A stretch of 64,000 nt of DNA from Bacteroidota bacterium (GTDB lineage Bacteria; Bacteroidota; Bacteroidia; Chitinophagales; LD1): NCBI GenBank assembly GCA_018267385.1, contig JAFDYN010000009.1, forward strand, positions 124,001 through 188,000, in the 5' to 3' direction. Below the pieces are notes generated by a model. The model ran no database searches, was not told where the DNA came from, and worked only from the letters and a program-made list of their open reading frames with translations. Every line of letters begins with the position of its first letter. Position 1 is the first letter of the stretch. A program made the translations under genes and the position numbers. Of this stretch, positions 23,268 through 30,013 are shown piece after piece.

Positions 23268-23433
23268 GGTTGAAATCTGTTTAGGTGATAGATGTATCTC
23301 TAACGCTTTTTCCATACGGAAATTACAGCGAAAAAATCAGACTGTCTAATCCATAAACGAGAAATGACAGAAAAGTAACAAACCGCGGGGTGTGCGGAGG
23401 AGCCTACCGATCAAGACAGCCCCCATGAGCTCG

Positions 23434-23538
23434 TTTTAACCCCTCTAATCTCCCCTGAATCAGGGGAGACTTAAACAGCCTCTGCACGCATATATATATG
23501 TATTAAAGCCTCCCTGTTTTAGGGAGGTGGGAGGGTAA
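23434..23538. repeat. Two-armed intergenic hairpin repeat, copy 2
   Basis: Arm 1 holds CTCCCCTGAATCAGGGGAG; arm 2 holds GCCTCCCTGTTTTAGGGAGG followed by TGGGAGGGT. They face each other across GACTTAAA ... TATTAAAG. This fills most of the 303-nt gap between 23268 and 23570; nothing else was seen there. Confidence 0.65.
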
Positions 23539-23570
23539 GGCAGTGTCAGGCGGCCAGGTTTTCACGTTTT

Positions 23571-24569
23571 CTACCCCAGATAGTCCGCTATATCGCTGCC
23601 CGGTGCCCAGCGGCTACCCTCCATCTCCTTTAGCACCGTCATACGCGGTACGGTAGCCGTCATCGCTTTCGCCTTCTTTGCCCACAGATCATAGCTGCCC
23701 GTATCGGGGCAGAGGGTCACCCGCCGGTGGCGCAGCGGGGCCATGCGCGCGGCGTTGAGCTGCTCCCGGCCACCTGTGGCCAGCCAGAGGCGGCGCGGCT
23801 GTAGCAGGCTGGCTATCACCGCCGTCTTCTCACTCTCTACGATGCAGACCGGCATGCCGCTATACCGCGGCTGAGAGAGCAGGTGCTCGCCATAGAGGCA
23901 CTGCCGCAGCCGGTAGCCCTCCATGCCCGCCAGGCTGTGCATCCACGAGATACGCGCCTCGGGTTCCTTCACACGCTTGCCGCTATCGGCGTGGTAGAGC
24001 ATCACCTTGCCCGTGCGGATGCGCTCCTGCGCGTCTATCTGCCACCAGATGGTAGCGCCGGGCCAGCGATCACTGATGCCGAACATATACATCCTAAACG
24101 CCCGGCTCAGCCCCTCCCACCCAAAGCGCCCGAGTATATACTGCGCAAAGTGACTATGGTGAAAGAGGTCCGTACTATCTGACCACACCCGGTACGGCAT
24201 CACGGAGAAATCATCGCGCTCCGGCACCTCCACAGCCGCCTGCTGCACCACGACAGGCGCGACCTTCGCCGTACTACTCCTGCGGCTATAAGTGGGGCGC
24301 CGTGCCGTCCTGTGCGTATCTGCGTGGCGTGTGATGATGCCGCTGCCCACGCCCGTGAGCGACGCATGGTCCTCCGCCCACCGGCGCGGCGTGTAGTGGT
24401 AGCCACAGCTCTCCTGCCTGTCGCACCGCCCCACCTCGGGCGCGATGTACTGCCCCGTCTGCGTATCTACATAGCGGGTAAACTTGTGCGGCTGATGGCA
24501 CCGCGGGCATATGTGGCGCGTGTGGCGGCCTGCGTATTTCTCCAATTGTACAGTGTGTTGATTTTGCAT
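23571..24569 (-). CDS. DUF6371-type zinc-ribbon/Toprim-like protein (mobile-element primase-related)
   Basis: 332 aa from the ATG at 24567-24569. The N-terminus has a four-cysteine zinc ribbon (C21, C24, C49, C55; HICPRCHQPHKF ... GRCDRQESCGYHYTP), as in primase-type proteins. The second half (about 225-332) has a Toprim-like order: PVCIVESEKTAVIAS, WLATGGREQL and VTLCPDTGSYDLW. The family is common in Bacteroidota mobile elements and phage-like islands next to RepA/DnaB-like ATPases; one lies at 26786 here. The longer frame to 24857 adds 96 residues of low-complexity translation of the repeat region and is rejected. It is GC-rich compared with the gene pair beside it. Confidence 0.75.
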   Translation of the reverse strand: MQNQHTVQLEKYAGRHTRHICPRCHQPHKFTRYVDTQTGQYIAPEVGRCDRQESCGYHYTPRRWAEDHASLTGVGSGIITRHADTHRTARRPTYSRRSSTAKVAPVVVQQAAVEVPERDDFSVMPYRVWSDSTDLFHHSHFAQYILGRFGWEGLSRAFRMYMFGISDRWPGATIWWQIDAQERIRTGKVMLYHADSGKRVKEPEARISWMHSLAGMEGYRLRQCLYGEHLLSQPRYSGMPVCIVESEKTAVIASLLQPRRLWLATGGREQLNAARMAPLRHRRVTLCPDTGSYDLWAKKAKAMTATVPRMTVLKEMEGSRWAPGSDIADYLG

Positions 24570-24678
24570 AGGATTTTTTTTAGGGAATAGGGAAAAAGGA
24601 ATAGGGAATAACGAATAGAGAATAATGGAATGCAAGGGCGGCCTATGGACGCGTACCTTTTGGGGCAATGCAGCGCCG

Positions 24679-24739
24679 GCGCCATTGCACACAGCCCCAA
24701 CGGGGCGGCACGCCCTTAGCGCATGGGCATCGCCCTGCG
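24679..24739. repeat. 61-bp direct repeat, copy A
   Basis: This segment recurs at 24825-24885 with a single difference (CCATTG here, CCATGG there). It contains GCCCCAACGGGGC, which can fold back on itself. Confidence 0.85.
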
Positions 24740-24824
24740 ATGGTGTGCGGTCGGCCTCTTGTAGCGTACGGCGGTGCCATACGCTGGAGGCGCATCGCCC
24801 CTTCGGGGCTTCATATACCGCCGG

Positions 24825-24885
24825 GCGCCATGGCACACAGCCCCAACGGGGCGGCACGCCCTTAGCGCATGGGCATCGCCCTGCG
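24825..24885. repeat. 61-bp direct repeat, copy B
   Basis: Second copy of the unit at 24679-24739, offset 146 bp. A related GCCCCTTCGGGGC palindrome lies between the copies at about 24797-24809. Confidence 0.85.
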
Positions 24886-24923
24886 GTAGTAGTGTGCGGG
24901 CATCAAGAACCGCAAAAAAACAT

Positions 24924-24957
24924 CGTCATTGCGAGGAGCGAAGCGACGTGGCAATCC
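24924..24957. repeat. REP-like element, copy 1
   Basis: It starts CGTCATTGCGAGGAG and ends GACGTGGCAATCC. The same element occurs twice, facing inwards, at 32439-32575. Confidence 0.75.
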
Positions 24958-25016
24958 AGAATGTGCCGGACGAGGGCTGTGGAGGCGGCAGATCGGCTAT
25001 CAAACTAAGACTCTAT

Positions 25017-25063
25017 ATATTCATTCATTCACTTCTCTTAGTGAACATGAATGAATGAATATT
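25017..25063. repeat. 47-bp inverted repeat, left end of ATPase cassette
   Basis: The sequence is an imperfect palindrome: 14 bp at each end pair (25017-25030 with 25049-25062, built on ATTC units) and TTCACT/AGTGAA can pair within it. Its reverse complement equals 26726-26772 except for one base. It ends 1 nt from the stop codon of the gene at 25065. It could act as a terminator hairpin, a recombination end, or both. Confidence 0.85.
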
Positions 25064-25064
25064 T

Positions 25065-25547
25065 CTAGTCGGCATAATCTGCAAGTATCTCCCGCATTTT
25101 GAGAAGCGTTGGAGACTTTTTCTGTATCAAAGTATTAATGAGATCTTTCAGGTCTTGATTAAATTCAGCGGCCGGTGATTTCGCCAGTTGACGCAGTCTT
25201 TTAAAGTCAGCCAAGATTTTATGCTTAACTACCGCCTCATCAGCACAAAGCGTAATAAACTTTTCAAAGCCTTCTCCTTTGGTCTCGATCAGGCTGTGAA
25301 GCCCATTAGGGTGTGTCAGAAGTTTAAAGTTTGGGTAGGTTTTCTTAACAGCAAACTCACGATAATAGGTAAACACCTTATTACGTTTTCCTTCATCAAT
25401 GACACCTATGGCCTTTAGCTTTTTGGCGGAATGTTGTAGCGAATTAAATACATCGCCTATACCTGGCTGGTGAATAGGTTCAGATTTGGCAAGCATACGT
25501 ACAAGTAAAGTGTCTGCATGACACTCAGGCAATAATCTCCGATTCAT
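25065..25547 (-). CDS. Small partner of AAA ATPase, Toprim-like acidic motifs
   Basis: 160 aa with no signal or membrane segment. It starts MNRRLLPECHADTLLVRMLA, with E8 and D12 at the end of a first strand. After GIGDVFNSL it has KLKAIGVIDEGKR (D51, E52). This E ... D-x layout at strand ends is that of Toprim or DUF3226/DUF4435-like nuclease domains, but the second acidic site reads DEG rather than DxD, so the call is tentative. Next comes NFKLLTHPNGLHSLIETKGEGFEKFI and a basic helical C-terminus. Its ATG overlaps the TAA of the ATPase gene by one base (TAATG), showing translational coupling. ATPase plus Toprim-like partner pairs such as PARIS act in phage defence; that role is inferred here. 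Confidence 0.55.
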   Translation of the reverse strand: MNRRLLPECHADTLLVRMLAKSEPIHQPGIGDVFNSLQHSAKKLKAIGVIDEGKRNKVFTYYREFAVKKTYPNFKLLTHPNGLHSLIETKGEGFEKFITLCADEAVVKHKILADFKRLRQLAKSPAAEFNQDLKDLINTLIQKKSPTLLKMREILADYAD

Positions 25548-26668
25548 TATTTTTTAGGTTCTTTCTGAAAAGCCTGCATATTAAAGAAGAGATCAACATT
25601 ATTATCCATTATGAAGATGATCTCCTTCCTCGTCAGCTCACGTACTTTGGTCTGGAAGTCTTCATAATAGGTGATAAATATCTTCACTTCATTTTCTACA
25701 CTAGCATGTTCCAGCATTTTCTCAATCACAAAAGGACTATGCGTGGTGATAAAGTATTGATTGTGCTTGTCGTCTATTATTCGATCTGCCAACATTTGAA
25801 TATAGGGTGGATAAGATTGTGACTCTGGCTCTTCAAAGAGAAGCACCGAGTTTTTGTTGGATTCTATTGCCGCTAAATAGTACAACATCCTTTGAAACGT
25901 ATCCGGTGTCATTGAGAAGTCGATCTGATAATAGTGATCGTCACTTATTCTCATTATATCGAGCCTATTAGAATTCTTTTCAAAAAGTATTTTGAATGAA
26001 AACTTACTAAAAAAATCGCCTGCAAACTCCTTTAATCTAGAATCGTGTCTGATGATCTTCCATAAGTTCCAACCATCAGGATCTAAATTATCACGAAACG
26101 CAGTAGTGGGTGCGGTGCCTCTGTCTTCTCCAGGTATTCCTCGAAAATGATACTTAAAAACTGGAGGTTCTGGTATAATCCTTCTATCGATAATACCTCC
26201 AGATTTATCGAATCCTAAAGAAAGTTCCCACTCGTTCTTTATTTCACTGAACCAACGTAAGAAAAACTTACCTCTCATGTGATCAAGTATAAACGTGTGC
26301 TCTCCTACAGTTATCCGAATATCCTTATCATAGTTTTTATCGAAAAACAAGGATGCCATATCCGAATACCTTATCATAGTTGATGGCAACTTAGGTAATT
26401 CCATCACACTACGAACATTTGTAAGGGCTAACGCCTCTAAAATATTCGATTTGCCAGCATTGGGCTCGCCTATGAAAACATTTACACGAGCAGGTTTGAA
26501 TGATATCTTATTTATGGACTTGAAATTACTTATATCAATAGTATATAGCGGCAAGTCCAGCCCAACGGCGTTTTTGCGTTTTGGAACAACCTTTTTCTTA
26601 GCTGTTGTTCTTGCTTTACTAGTTGTCGTTTTCAACTGAAATGCTCTCGCTGACGGTTTTGTTGGCAT
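25547..26668 (-). CDS. AAA15/OLD-like ABC-type ATPase
   Basis: 373 aa from the ATG at 26668. A basic, low-complexity tail (1-35, TTSKARTTAKKKVVPKRK) precedes an SMC/RecF-like ATPase: LYTIDISNFKSINKISF, Walker A GEPNAGKS (67-74), Walker B SVLLFEEPES, then the H-switch YFITTHSPF. There is no long coiled coil and no fused Toprim domain, unlike OLD or GajA; the small partner may supply the nuclease. The C-terminus (VRELTRKEIIFIMDNN) differs from known types. A longer start at 26701 is upstream of the predicted promoter and is rejected. AT-rich codon use contrasts with the GC-rich genes on both sides, a sign of separate origin. Confidence 0.85.
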   Translation of the reverse strand: MPTKPSARAFQLKTTTSKARTTAKKKVVPKRKNAVGLDLPLYTIDISNFKSINKISFKPARVNVFIGEPNAGKSNILEALALTNVRSVMELPKLPSTMIRYSDMASLFFDKNYDKDIRITVGEHTFILDHMRGKFFLRWFSEIKNEWELSLGFDKSGGIIDRRIIPEPPVFKYHFRGIPGEDRGTAPTTAFRDNLDPDGWNLWKIIRHDSRLKEFAGDFFSKFSFKILFEKNSNRLDIMRISDDHYYQIDFSMTPDTFQRMLYYLAAIESNKNSVLLFEEPESQSYPPYIQMLADRIIDDKHNQYFITTHSPFVIEKMLEHASVENEVKIFITYYEDFQTKVRELTRKEIIFIMDNNVDLFFNMQAFQKEPKK

Positions 26669-26672
26669 ACCG

Positions 26673-26706
26673 CAAATATAACTTGTCAAAAATAAGAACA
26701 AAAGTA
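26673..26706 (-). promoter_or_regulatory. Two overlapping -7/-33 promoter elements for the ATPase operon
   Basis: On the minus strand TATATTTG (26680-26673) lies 4 nt from the ATG, with TTTTG 18 nt upstream (26703-26699), close to the Bacteroidota -33/-7 spacing. The upstream motif is itself part of TACTTTTG (26706-26699), a second -7 match that would give a leader of about 24 nt. Either would drive the ATPase and its partner, so the cassette carries its own promoter. Confidence 0.65.
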
Positions 26707-26725
26707 CTTAAATCTGTTTCCTAAG

Positions 26726-26772
26726 AATATTCATTCATTCACGTTCACTAAGAGAAGTGAATGAATGAATAT
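26726..26772. repeat. 47-bp inverted repeat, right end of ATPase cassette
   Basis: Reverse complement of 25017-25063 with one difference (CACGTTC against CATGTTC). It lies 13 nt past the stop of the RepA-like gene and 20 nt upstream of the promoter pair of the ATPase operon. It can fold by pairing its ATTC and GAAT repeats. Confidence 0.85.
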
Positions 26773-26785
26773 TTCCCTCGACCTG

Positions 26786-27838
26786 CTATTCGCTGTCCTC
26801 GTCGTTAGTTTGGCTCTCCCAGCCCATTTTTTTAGCCTTTTTAAAAAGGTTAAAAACAGACGACTGGCTATTGTAGCCCATTAGCTCAGCGATTTGTGCC
26901 AATGTATTTCCCTCCGCCTTCAGCTCCCGCGCCTGCTCCCACTTCGCCTTGCTATCATCCACATCCTGGCCTTTCACCAGCAGCTCGAATGGGAGGCGCT
27001 GGCCAGTGTTAGTAAAGGTAAATGTCGGGCCGTCAAAGTGGAGGACAAAGCTCTCCGTCTTGTAGGTCAGCGGGAGGTAGTTGCCCTTCACGATGCAGAG
27101 GTGGCGGTCGGTAGGGCGTATGGGGTCGGGGCGCAGCTCTATCACGAGGCGCATCTTGCTCTCCAGGCCTTGGCCGGCCAGCAGGTTATTCTTGTGCGGG
27201 ATCAGGTTCTCGGTGCGCTTGCCCGTGTGGTGGAGGAAGAGGATGAGGCACTGATGCTCGCCCGCCAGTTTCTGAAAGGGCAGCAGGAAGCTCCGTATCT
27301 TATTCGTGTCCTTCAGGTCGCCCGTATATACATCGGCAAAGCAGTCTATGACCACGAGGTCGGCAGGCACGCGGGCCAGGTTGCGCTGCAGCGTCTCCAG
27401 TATATCCTCCGCCTGAAAGAGGAAGCGCAGCCGCCCTATCTCCGCATCGTCATACCGGCGCGTCTGCTGGCGCAGCAGGTAGCTGGTGGCCTCCTTCTCA
27501 TCTTCGGTAGAGACGTAGATGGCGCTGCGGTGCGTAGGCCGCAGCTCAAAGCCGAGCCAGTCGGCATCGCCCGCGGCCACAGCTATGGCCAGCTGGCGCA
27601 GCAGGGAGCTTTTGCCCGTATCGCTGGTGCCGGCCAGGCAGGCCACGCCCACCTTGGGGAAGACGGGGTGTATCAGCGAGGGTATCTCCGCTCCCGCATG
27701 GCGGCGGAGGTCATCCGCGCGGTGCTCGTCAGGGCAACTGTCCAGCGAGTCAAAGGCGGCATCTAGATAGGCATCGAGTTCTTCGGGTGTGAGGCGGGGC
27801 TTGGGGGTTTCATCACCTTCTGTAGGTTCCGTGTTCAT
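26786..27838 (-). CDS. RepA/AAA_25-like hexameric ATPase with C-terminal HTH
   Basis: 350 aa from the ATG at 27838. The core is RecA-fold: Walker A G-T-S-D-T-G-K-S-S (70-78), AIYVSTEDE (about 108-116), Walker B DLVVIDCFADV and LILFLHHTGKR (about 205-215), as in plasmid RepA helicases. The tail (about 300-345) reads NTLAQIAELMGYNSQSSVFN, a helix-turn-helix. It probably unwinds DNA or loads a replisome for a mobile element, with the DUF6371 protein as primase-like partner. The two genes are now separated by the 1.76-kb inverted-repeat cassette. A longer start at 27904 gives a non-conserved extension. Confidence 0.8.
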   Translation of the reverse strand: MNTEPTEGDETPKPRLTPEELDAYLDAAFDSLDSCPDEHRADDLRRHAGAEIPSLIHPVFPKVGVACLAGTSDTGKSSLLRQLAIAVAAGDADWLGFELRPTHRSAIYVSTEDEKEATSYLLRQQTRRYDDAEIGRLRFLFQAEDILETLQRNLARVPADLVVIDCFADVYTGDLKDTNKIRSFLLPFQKLAGEHQCLILFLHHTGKRTENLIPHKNNLLAGQGLESKMRLVIELRPDPIRPTDRHLCIVKGNYLPLTYKTESFVLHFDGPTFTFTNTGQRLPFELLVKGQDVDDSKAKWEQARELKAEGNTLAQIAELMGYNSQSSVFNLFKKAKKMGWESQTNDEDSE

Positions 27839-28207
27839 GGTTTCAATTTTTGCGTTTAAAGTAAATAAAGAGCTGCTGCAGACGGCCGTCATGAGCGAGT
27901 GCAAATATAGTATTTTTACGCACTTTTTGCAGTCATCAAGGCAGCACTTTTATTCACAAACGCGAGGGTAAGTTTTTTGAGCGAAAGGGTTGGCGGAGTG
28001 GTGGGATTGGCTAACGGAAAGGGATATTGCATGAACGACATTTCTCCTCCCCGACTGCCCGTGGTTGTGCGTCCCCGCCCGCCACAAGTGTAGCGCCCAG
28101 CCTGTGATCGGTGGGGACACCGACCACGGACAGATTAAGGCGCTCCATGTTTGTCGTTGGTGACGCTAGGCTAAACACTAGCGACGACAGAGGACGTCAA
28201 TATCAAG
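27839..28207. other. Structured non-coding tract between the nuclease-like and RepA-like genes
   Basis: No gene was found in 369 nt. A -7-like TATATTTG lies on the minus strand at 27909-27902, 63 nt before the RepA-like ATG. Two hairpins lie nearer the nuclease-like gene: CGGTG/CACCG around 28109-28122 and CGCTAG/CTAGCG around 28164-28183. The second can extend by GTCGT/ACGAC. The tract is GC-rich, unlike the gene to its right. It could be a small RNA, terminator pair or element end. Confidence 0.45.
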
Positions 28208-29677
28208 CTAGGCATTAGATGCAGAAATTTTGTTATCCTGTCGTGCATCAATTAAAATAATGTTTTGATCGTTGACCATACTTAACGCTCTCAATGTTTT
28301 TTCCACGGAGCGATACTCCTTTCCAGTAAAGTAAATAATAACCTTATATCCAGCACTAGCCGAGCTAGCTTGTTTATATATTTCAAGTTGCTTCTCTAGA
28401 TTTTGCTTAAGCTTAGTGTTGCGCGCTAACTTAAATTCTACCAGTGTTTTATCTTCCGAACCATATGAAATTGCATAATCTACAGGGCCTCTACCATTGT
28501 TTACTTCACGATTTACGTCGAAAGAAGAAGCATACCAAGTTAGACGATACATTATTTGTAAATCTATTTCTCTTGTTATAGCCTGTTTGTACTTGTAGAA
28601 TAGTCGATAGCCGTCGTTTTCCTCAATCACTTTTTTTAGAAATAAAATTCGTTTCAAAGCTGCTTCTTTAGTTCTTTCAGGAGCAATATTATAGAAGCCT
28701 AAAGTTTCAAGAAGACTAGATAAGCTTTTCGTAACATGCATTAAATCCCTCACCAGTTTTACCCTCTCCTGCGCGGTATACGCTGCACTTTGAATTTCCT
28801 GTTCTTTCTGCCCTATGTACAAATCGAATAGTTGTGGATATTGCTGAAGTGTTTTATTGATAGCTTCACCTGTTTCCGACTTATTGTGTTCCTTTCTATC
28901 TTTCGGAAGTTTGGGTAGTTGCCTCTTAAAATAAGCCGATATTTCACTGCGCAATTGAATATTAGGCACAGCATTACAAAGCTCATTAAACCTCCCTTCA
29001 AGATCGTGAAGGTTAATCCAGTTATCATCTTTTGTAAGAATGTCTGATGGAGTTAACAAGATAAATTCATTTTCCTTTTGAGGGTGTACAGGCAAAAGAA
29101 ACTTTTTAGACATCCACTTTTCAAGGTCATAATCGAAGTAAGCTTTTGGAACATTAAACTCCTTTAAGAATATTGGATTAATGTTCTTCTTACTAAAGGT
29201 TTCTGTATACTGACATAAATAGTGCTTAATCAAATTAGTCGTAAAGTCACTTATATTGTCCTTACCAACACCATTATGAAATAGTCCAGCCTTTTCAAGA
29301 TGGACTGATTGAGTGTATTCTGTGTTTTCGAAAAGATATTTCAGATTCTGGGAAAGAGCTTTTGCGAACTTTTCACCTAATCCACTTCCTTCATTTCCAC
29401 CTAAACAGTAGCCTAGCCAGTTTTCTTTTACCTCTGGGAAATAATACCATTTCATTAGCTCCCCACGCTCGCTCCTTCCTTCTACTGCTCTATCTCTTAA
29501 AAAAGTCAGGTAGGTAACTATTTCATTATGTATTTCCTTGTATTCAGTCTTTTTACTAGCAAATAGTAGAAAGGGGTCTATAAATAAAGGCAAATCATTA
29601 ATCAATGAAATATTGAATGCGCCATATTGATCAAGCACAGTCTCTTCTATTTGAAAGAAATCGCAAAAAGATATCAT
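28208..29677 (-). CDS. PD-(D/E)XK nuclease-like protein, stand-alone
   Basis: 489 aa from the ATG at 29677 (a GTG two codons earlier is possible). The N-terminal part (NDLPLFIDPFLLFAS, then EIVTYLTFLRDRA) and the long helical middle match no family I can name. Near the C-terminus (about 410-440) are NGRGPVDYAISYG and TLVEFKLARN, giving D ... E-x-K in strand order. A helix with QLEIYKQ and the strand YKVIIYFTG follow. This is the PD-(D/E)XK nuclease core. AT-rich codon use and its place in an accessory island suggest transfer and a DNA-cutting or defence role. It has no methylase, helicase or specificity gene beside it. Confidence 0.6.
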   Translation of the reverse strand: MISFCDFFQIEETVLDQYGAFNISLINDLPLFIDPFLLFASKKTEYKEIHNEIVTYLTFLRDRAVEGRSERGELMKWYYFPEVKENWLGYCLGGNEGSGLGEKFAKALSQNLKYLFENTEYTQSVHLEKAGLFHNGVGKDNISDFTTNLIKHYLCQYTETFSKKNINPIFLKEFNVPKAYFDYDLEKWMSKKFLLPVHPQKENEFILLTPSDILTKDDNWINLHDLEGRFNELCNAVPNIQLRSEISAYFKRQLPKLPKDRKEHNKSETGEAINKTLQQYPQLFDLYIGQKEQEIQSAAYTAQERVKLVRDLMHVTKSLSSLLETLGFYNIAPERTKEAALKRILFLKKVIEENDGYRLFYKYKQAITREIDLQIMYRLTWYASSFDVNREVNNGRGPVDYAISYGSEDKTLVEFKLARNTKLKQNLEKQLEIYKQASSASAGYKVIIYFTGKEYRSVEKTLRALSMVNDQNIILIDARQDNKISASNA

Positions 29678-30013
29678 AGTCACAAAATTTGTAAATCAAA
29701 TAAAGAGTAATGTATTGTCTTTCGCAATCTTTATAAACATAAATCAGTATTCAAGCCTCATATTCAAACAAATGTTCCCCTTATGGTACAAGAATGAAGG
29801 GTGGCTTTATTGCGCCGAGCTGGGTACTTTGTTAGCCAATATAGATGCTTCACTCCGTTCAGCATGACAAAAGCTGCGGGCCTTCACGCTGCCAGTCAAT
29901 CTGTAGTTCCGTAAATCAGTAATTCTGTAAATCACGCAAGGGTTCCCCCCTCCCTCCCCCGTTAATCTCTGTTAAGCCCCGTCAGCCCTCTTCGGCGAAA
30001 ACGTTAGATTCGC
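29678..30013. other. Intergenic region with REP-like hairpin
   Basis: No gene was seen in 336 nt. At 29844-29868 GATGCT ... AGCATGAC forms a small hairpin with a centre like the REP elements of this genome. At 29899-29937 two CTGTA-containing repeats (TTCCGTAAATC / TTCTGTAAATC) and a C-rich tract precede the histidine kinase start. Confidence 0.45.

Follow-up and report, generated by a model that had tools for sequence, protein, structure and literature searches.

A predicted ATPase–Toprim gene pair between inverted hairpins in a helicase–primase gene module of a Bacteroidota bacterium

Why is a compact pair of genes enclosed by an inverted repeat, and what do the genes and the repeat belong to? 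The locus lies in a 64-kb stretch of a Bacteroidota contig, which was analysed as a whole (64,000 nucleotides, here called the window). Positions 25017–26772 had been described as an inverted-repeat cassette in a sequence-only reading, and both the coordinates and the repeat are correct. The cassette carries one 46-nt stem-loop at each end. The repeat arms (25017–25068 and 26721–26772) are 52 nt each, 94% complementary, with a spacing of 1652 nt. The features of the cassette and its surroundings are as follows.

25017–25062, plus strand: distal hairpin with arms TTCATTCATTCA and loop CTTCTCTTAGTG; its end lies 3 bp past the stop codon of the Toprim-type partner
25065–25547, minus strand: Toprim-type partner, 160 aa; E8, D12 and D51 present, G53 where the family has Asp
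25547–26668, minus strand: AAA15/OLD-type ATPase; putative ATG start, reading frame open from TTG at 26701
26673–26702, minus strand: match to the Bacteroidota-type promoter TTTG-N18-TAtaTTTG, within the cassette
26727–26772, minus strand: proximal hairpin, an inverted copy of the distal one, 13 bp past the AAA_25 stop codon
26786–27838, minus strand: AAA_25 helicase-like gene (RepA/KaiC-type ATPase with a C-terminal HTH), the upstream border of the slot
23571–24569, minus strand: DUF6371 gene (zinc ribbon and DnaG-type primase core), the downstream border of the slot
23393–28041, no strand: outer limits of the module, where homology to genome G005 stops and resumes (on different contigs)

The ATPase and its small partner

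The ATPase gene and the 160-aa reading frame both lie on the minus strand and overlap as TAATG, which is the layout of translational coupling described earlier. The ATPase matched the families AAA_15/AAA_21 and, at the superfamily level, the PADLOC models for ATPase-Toprim I-B, AbiLi, AriA, Old and GajA. Its Walker A (GEPNAGKSN), Walker B (LLFEEPES) and H-switch (THSPF) motifs, already recognized in the sequence-only reading, are kept in the homologues. The basic tail attributed to this ATPase turned out to be no family trait. It corresponds to roughly 37 additional N-terminal residues, present in this copy only among 18 aligned, and the assignment of the start codon is uncertain.

Using the ATPase as a query, we found the partner directly 3' of it in 77 of 80 public loci, mostly with an overlap of a few bases; one of the other three loci stops at a contig edge. 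According to the public records, the 80 loci span Bacteroidota, Chlorobi, Methylococcaceae and archaeal bins. Within the order, the partner family is present in 21 of the 398 genomes, and in nearly all the recovered loci, the gene immediately 5' encodes a member of the ATPase family. The ATPase is therefore almost never alone, and the two genes form a true unit, as had been supposed. The very small size of the partner, previously singled out as unusual, is common among the aligned family members (~160–190 aa). No PADLOC, Pfam or NCBIfam family matched the partner, and the plasmid and phage collections yielded no relatives at E 1e-3 (one query each).

The AF2 model of the partner had a pLDDT of 94.9, and a Foldseek search on its own returned nothing significant. 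When about 1000 chains were realigned by VIA, the best six were OLD/GajA Toprim domains (Z 7.4–6.1 over ~135 residues), with plainly unrelated structures beginning at Z 5.5. As the best Toprim Z of 7.4 is below 8, the conserved residues were taken as backing. The invariant or near-invariant columns of 21 aligned partners include E8, C9, D12, D51, D53, K54, and K123. In OLD nucleases, metal A is served by E400, D455 and D457; E404 is one of the metal B ligands, and K562 is used as well (PMC7049728). Judged from the alignment, the partner family fits this catalytic pattern by order and spacing type with E8, D12, D51, D53 and K123, and the metal-binding set of E, D/E, DxD and Lys is kept. These findings support the Toprim-like character suggested earlier for the small protein: the structure search led to a predicted OLD-type Toprim fold, with OLD/GajA as the best matches. 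Among the acidic motifs proposed at that time, E8, D12 and D51 are conserved, in contrast to E52. Where the family motif has D51-x-D53-K54, the window copy shows D51-E52-G53. The nuclease activity of this copy is doubtful, because the second Asp of DxD is replaced by Gly.

In PARIS, the ABC-type ATPase AriA and the Toprim nuclease AriB are encoded by separate neighbouring genes, and a class 4 of OLD has been proposed for them (PMC10568477). The cassette resembles PARIS in the separate, adjacent ATPase and Toprim genes and in the scores of the ATPase on the AriA models (superfamily level), but its partner has only ~160 aa and matches neither AriB nor any family model. AbiL (AbiLi and AbiLii) is likewise a two-gene system of an ATPase and a small Toprim-like partner, and the ATPase matches AbiLi at 9e-16. 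However, an AbiLii match was obtained for only 1 of 21 partners, a weak one (0.0074), and for the window copy there was none. OLD and the GajA of Gabija share the ATPase type and the Toprim fold predicted for the partner, but they are fused single proteins, in contrast to the two genes here. Unlike Gabija, the cassette unit has no GajB-type helicase; its neighbours are AAA_25 and DUF6371. We read the gene pair as an uncharacterised split OLD-type ATPase–Toprim pair. Judged by its families, its likeliest role would be defence against phages, with the ATPase sensing infection and switching on the small Toprim nuclease. Widespread and unnamed, the pair is an addition to the phage-defence candidates.

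The hairpin ends

The hairpin ends are the most unusual part of the cassette. Both fold as hairpins (z −5.6 and −7.6 relative to shuffles), and after inversion of one, they are identical at 45 of 46 positions. A scan of the 64-kb window at the same threshold returned both ends and just one further hairpin, so the ends are not background. Rfam gave no match. The compact ends mentioned in the sequence-only reading are thus real, but what had been missed is a covarying hairpin family, which bounds exchangeable cargo in a helicase–primase module. A promoter of its own had also been ascribed to the pair. A sigma-70 scan yielded matches no more often than chance, whereas the only Bacteroidota-type match (TTTG-N18-TAnnTTTG) in the 64-kb window is located at 26673–26702, just before the ATPase, with 0.65 expected per window.

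A query with the cassette DNA returned three diverged hairpin copies 30 kb away, in an array behind groEL. In the aligned hairpins, the loop core is conserved (mostly CCTAG), and the stems vary by paired substitution. This covariation was first noticed in 13 hairpin sequences. For 26 hairpins of many words, 18 of the 18 stem pairs change on both sides somewhere, with 171 double-changed cells and 93% pairing, as compared with at most 47% when slid. The stems are made up of repeats of a short word, either three of ~4 bp or two of 7 bp (e.g., TTCATTCATTCA, GGTCAGTCAGTCA, GTTTCCGGTTTCC, and GTTCAGTGTTC). Among 86 hairpins, neighbours at least 500 bp apart had common arms in 14 of 17 cases, and pairs from different loci in 8%.

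Since the hairpins lie 3–20 bp past stop codons, they might act as transcription terminators or mRNA 3'-end elements; the cargo would then bring its own hairpin, and local gene conversion would match the arms. We consider this explanation unlikely. There is neither a T tract nor a match to a terminator consensus, the loop is conserved, and gain and loss at the hairpins are precise (see below). In addition, the mismatches in 390 outer pairs comprise G-T and A-C equally rarely (6 and 5), as would be expected if pairing is maintained at the DNA level or through arm-to-arm copying rather than by RNA selection.

The many copies of intergenic palindromes, a likeness to REP/RAYT systems, suggest another origin, as does a hairpin pair around a Y1 transposase gene: a Y1 transposase (RAYT/IS200-type) would have moved the hairpins as REP/MITE-like repeats, and their position on either side of genes would be accidental. 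In the present family, however, the stems vary and the loop is kept, and hairpin occurrence is unlinked to Y1 genes. G005, the genome richest in hairpins, has no Y1 relative at E 1e-10, and G006, G002, G017, and G025 have Y1 genes but no hairpins. Moreover, the place after AAA_25 is fixed across families, and the ends around the cargo are matched. Such an origin is very improbable. The Y1 transposase as the driver of the hairpins was rejected by the distribution of Y1 genes relative to hairpins.

Several arrangements were observed apart from the cassette. The array behind groEL (L008:12246–13721), on the same contig 30 kb upstream of the cassette and outside the window, contains four hairpin types as repeated blocks, and the genes between its hairpins vary across three species. 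At L028:4203–7844 (G000:C24), four direct hairpins stand in a row, with an AAA_25 paralogue and at least three unknown genes in between. At L027:3625–5109 (G000:C10), hairpins lie on both sides of an IS200-type Y1 transposase gene and a 148-aa reading frame. The interval between the cassette and DUF6371 includes a CGTC-tagged REP-like sequence and a 67-bp direct repeat (window 24922–24960 and 24674–24899); the REP class is that of PMC3733652.

The slot between AAA_25 and DUF6371

The window cassette sits between the AAA_25 gene and the DUF6371 gene. For the DUF6371 protein, a zinc ribbon and a DnaG-type primase core were predicted, and its best 24 PDB matches were DnaG, T7 gp4, Twinkle or T4 primosome entries (Z 14.1–10.8). 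A hairpin is present between the genes of a helicase-like and a primase-type protein, where the helicase call is an AAA_25 Pfam match. The order AAA_25, hairpin, cargo, hairpin and DUF6371 was found at six loci, that of the cassette and five more, in three species of the genus; in these draft genomes, cargo-bearing slots occur in one genus only. The hairpin lies 4–20 bp past the stop codon of 12 AAA_25 genes, and none was detected at the AAA_25 gene of G002. In the five single-cargo slots, the ends are inverted and match at 43–45 of 45–47 bases; between slots, they are 33–54% alike.

The slots differ in their contents. A G004 slot holds a related ATPase–partner pair (51–52% identity), and another slot of this genome contains PDC-M31A (2e-73) and PDC-M31B. 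One G005 slot contains, on the opposite strand, a gene resembling TIR or nucleoside-deoxyribosyltransferase genes, and another slot of G005 has a GIY-YIG gene. The second slot of G000 (L175) accommodates two cargos with three hairpins. Related slots thus hold defence-like cargo (PDC-M31A/B, TIR-like), and part of the slot cargo is not defence-like (GIY-YIG, lipoproteins, unknown). One of the cargos at L175 (3537–4325, minus strand) encodes 262 aa with no Pfam or PADLOC match; by position only, it is a candidate defence gene. Beside the module, the gene at window 28208–29683 (minus strand) matches PDC-M36A, a phage-defence candidate (6.9e-24), and is absent from the corresponding place in G005.

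Empty slots were found outside the genus. In G015 (another genus of the same family), G140 and G378 (other families), AAA_25 adjoins DUF6371 with a single hairpin between them, of the form CGTTTCCTGTTTCC-loop. The hairpin-model search of 398 genomes yielded hits in only 8 genomes outside the genus, 4 of them at DUF6371, a coincidence with a chance probability of ~1e-12 by a crude count with the training locus left out. Immediately upstream of more divergent DUF6371 genes, repeats of other words were seen. Among the 23 genes tested (22 outside the genus), a hairpin was significant in 14 and a repeated 6-mer in 16 (p 0.05); for 4 of the 23, no significant word repeat was obtained upstream. The word-repeat hairpin thus seems to be an old part of the helicase–primase module. 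In G014 (L181:5060–5106), a family hairpin is placed in frame within the DUF6371 coding sequence, between the zinc ribbon and the primase core.

Gain and loss at the hairpins

At an orthologous place, G004 has one hairpin, whereas G005 has 2.2 kb with an AAA_25 gene and further hairpins between two direct hairpins. The flanks together with one hairpin align end to end over 1279 columns (86% identity). The difference is a precise indel that leaves a single hairpin, observed at one locus other than that of the window and with direct hairpins, in contrast to the inverted ones of the slots. Hairpin-bounded stretches also differ between species at the groEL and MDH loci. At the place of the cassette itself, the module is bracketed by homology to G005, which breaks off at 23392 and is picked up again at 28042, with the two sides on different contigs; G005 is rearranged there. 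G004 has an 82% DUF6371 orthologue at this place, on a contig that ends before the cassette.

Precise gain and loss, a structure kept while the stem sequence changes, and the two cargos with three hairpins at L175 would also suit an unlinked recombinase of the integron type for which the hairpins are attC-like sites. An arrangement in which structured sites of variable sequence lie between cargo units is indeed reminiscent of integron cassettes. Here, however, the conserved bases are in the loop, the word is private to each locus, and the slot hairpins are matched and inverted inside a helicase–primase gene pair. Furthermore, no integrase was seen among the window proteins scanned. We regard attC-like sites as quite unlikely.

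Plasmid RSF1010 combines ssi hairpins with the RepA helicase and the RepB' primase. The module resembles it in bringing together a helicase, a primase and initiation-type hairpins. The differences are the DnaG-type primase, the hairpin between both genes and the cargo between inverted copies, and the initiation role is a presumed one here.

With these results in hand, we propose that a primosome-associated hairpin bounds exchangeable cargo. The cassette is probably cargo in a hairpin-bounded helicase–primase slot, comprising a split ATPase–Toprim pair, with a hairpin that belongs to the module and exchange taking place at the hairpins. This reading draws on the gene pair, the predicted folds, the slot layout, the covariation, the empty and alternative slots and the one precise indel elsewhere. 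In such a module, a single hairpin copy would separate the gene of the AAA_25 helicase from that of the DnaG-like primase; it would probably serve both proteins for single-strand initiation, for loading or as an operator. Cargo would be bounded by duplicated hairpins; where two hairpins share a word, the stretch enclosed by them may recombine there, giving precise gain and loss. We suggest only tentatively, at somewhat less than even odds, that this constitutes a new gene-exchange unit, in which the private-word hairpin of a primosome module would mark the boundary of exchangeable, partly defence-related cargo and be the place of its recombination or replication; a dedicated recombinase would not be involved. 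The literature consulted, mainly freely accessible, gave no fitting account of such hairpins, of such cassettes or of an origin of this kind. A covarying hairpin that lies between helicase and primase genes and is duplicated around cargo would offer a testable route for the integrase-free insertion and removal of small defence systems in chromosomes, and the hairpin can be used as a search handle for more cargo. A separate set of hairpins was observed in G342 (Saprospiraceae-type; L270 and six places): seven perfect 21-bp hairpins with the loop GCCTAGGC and identical scores, perhaps an IS end.
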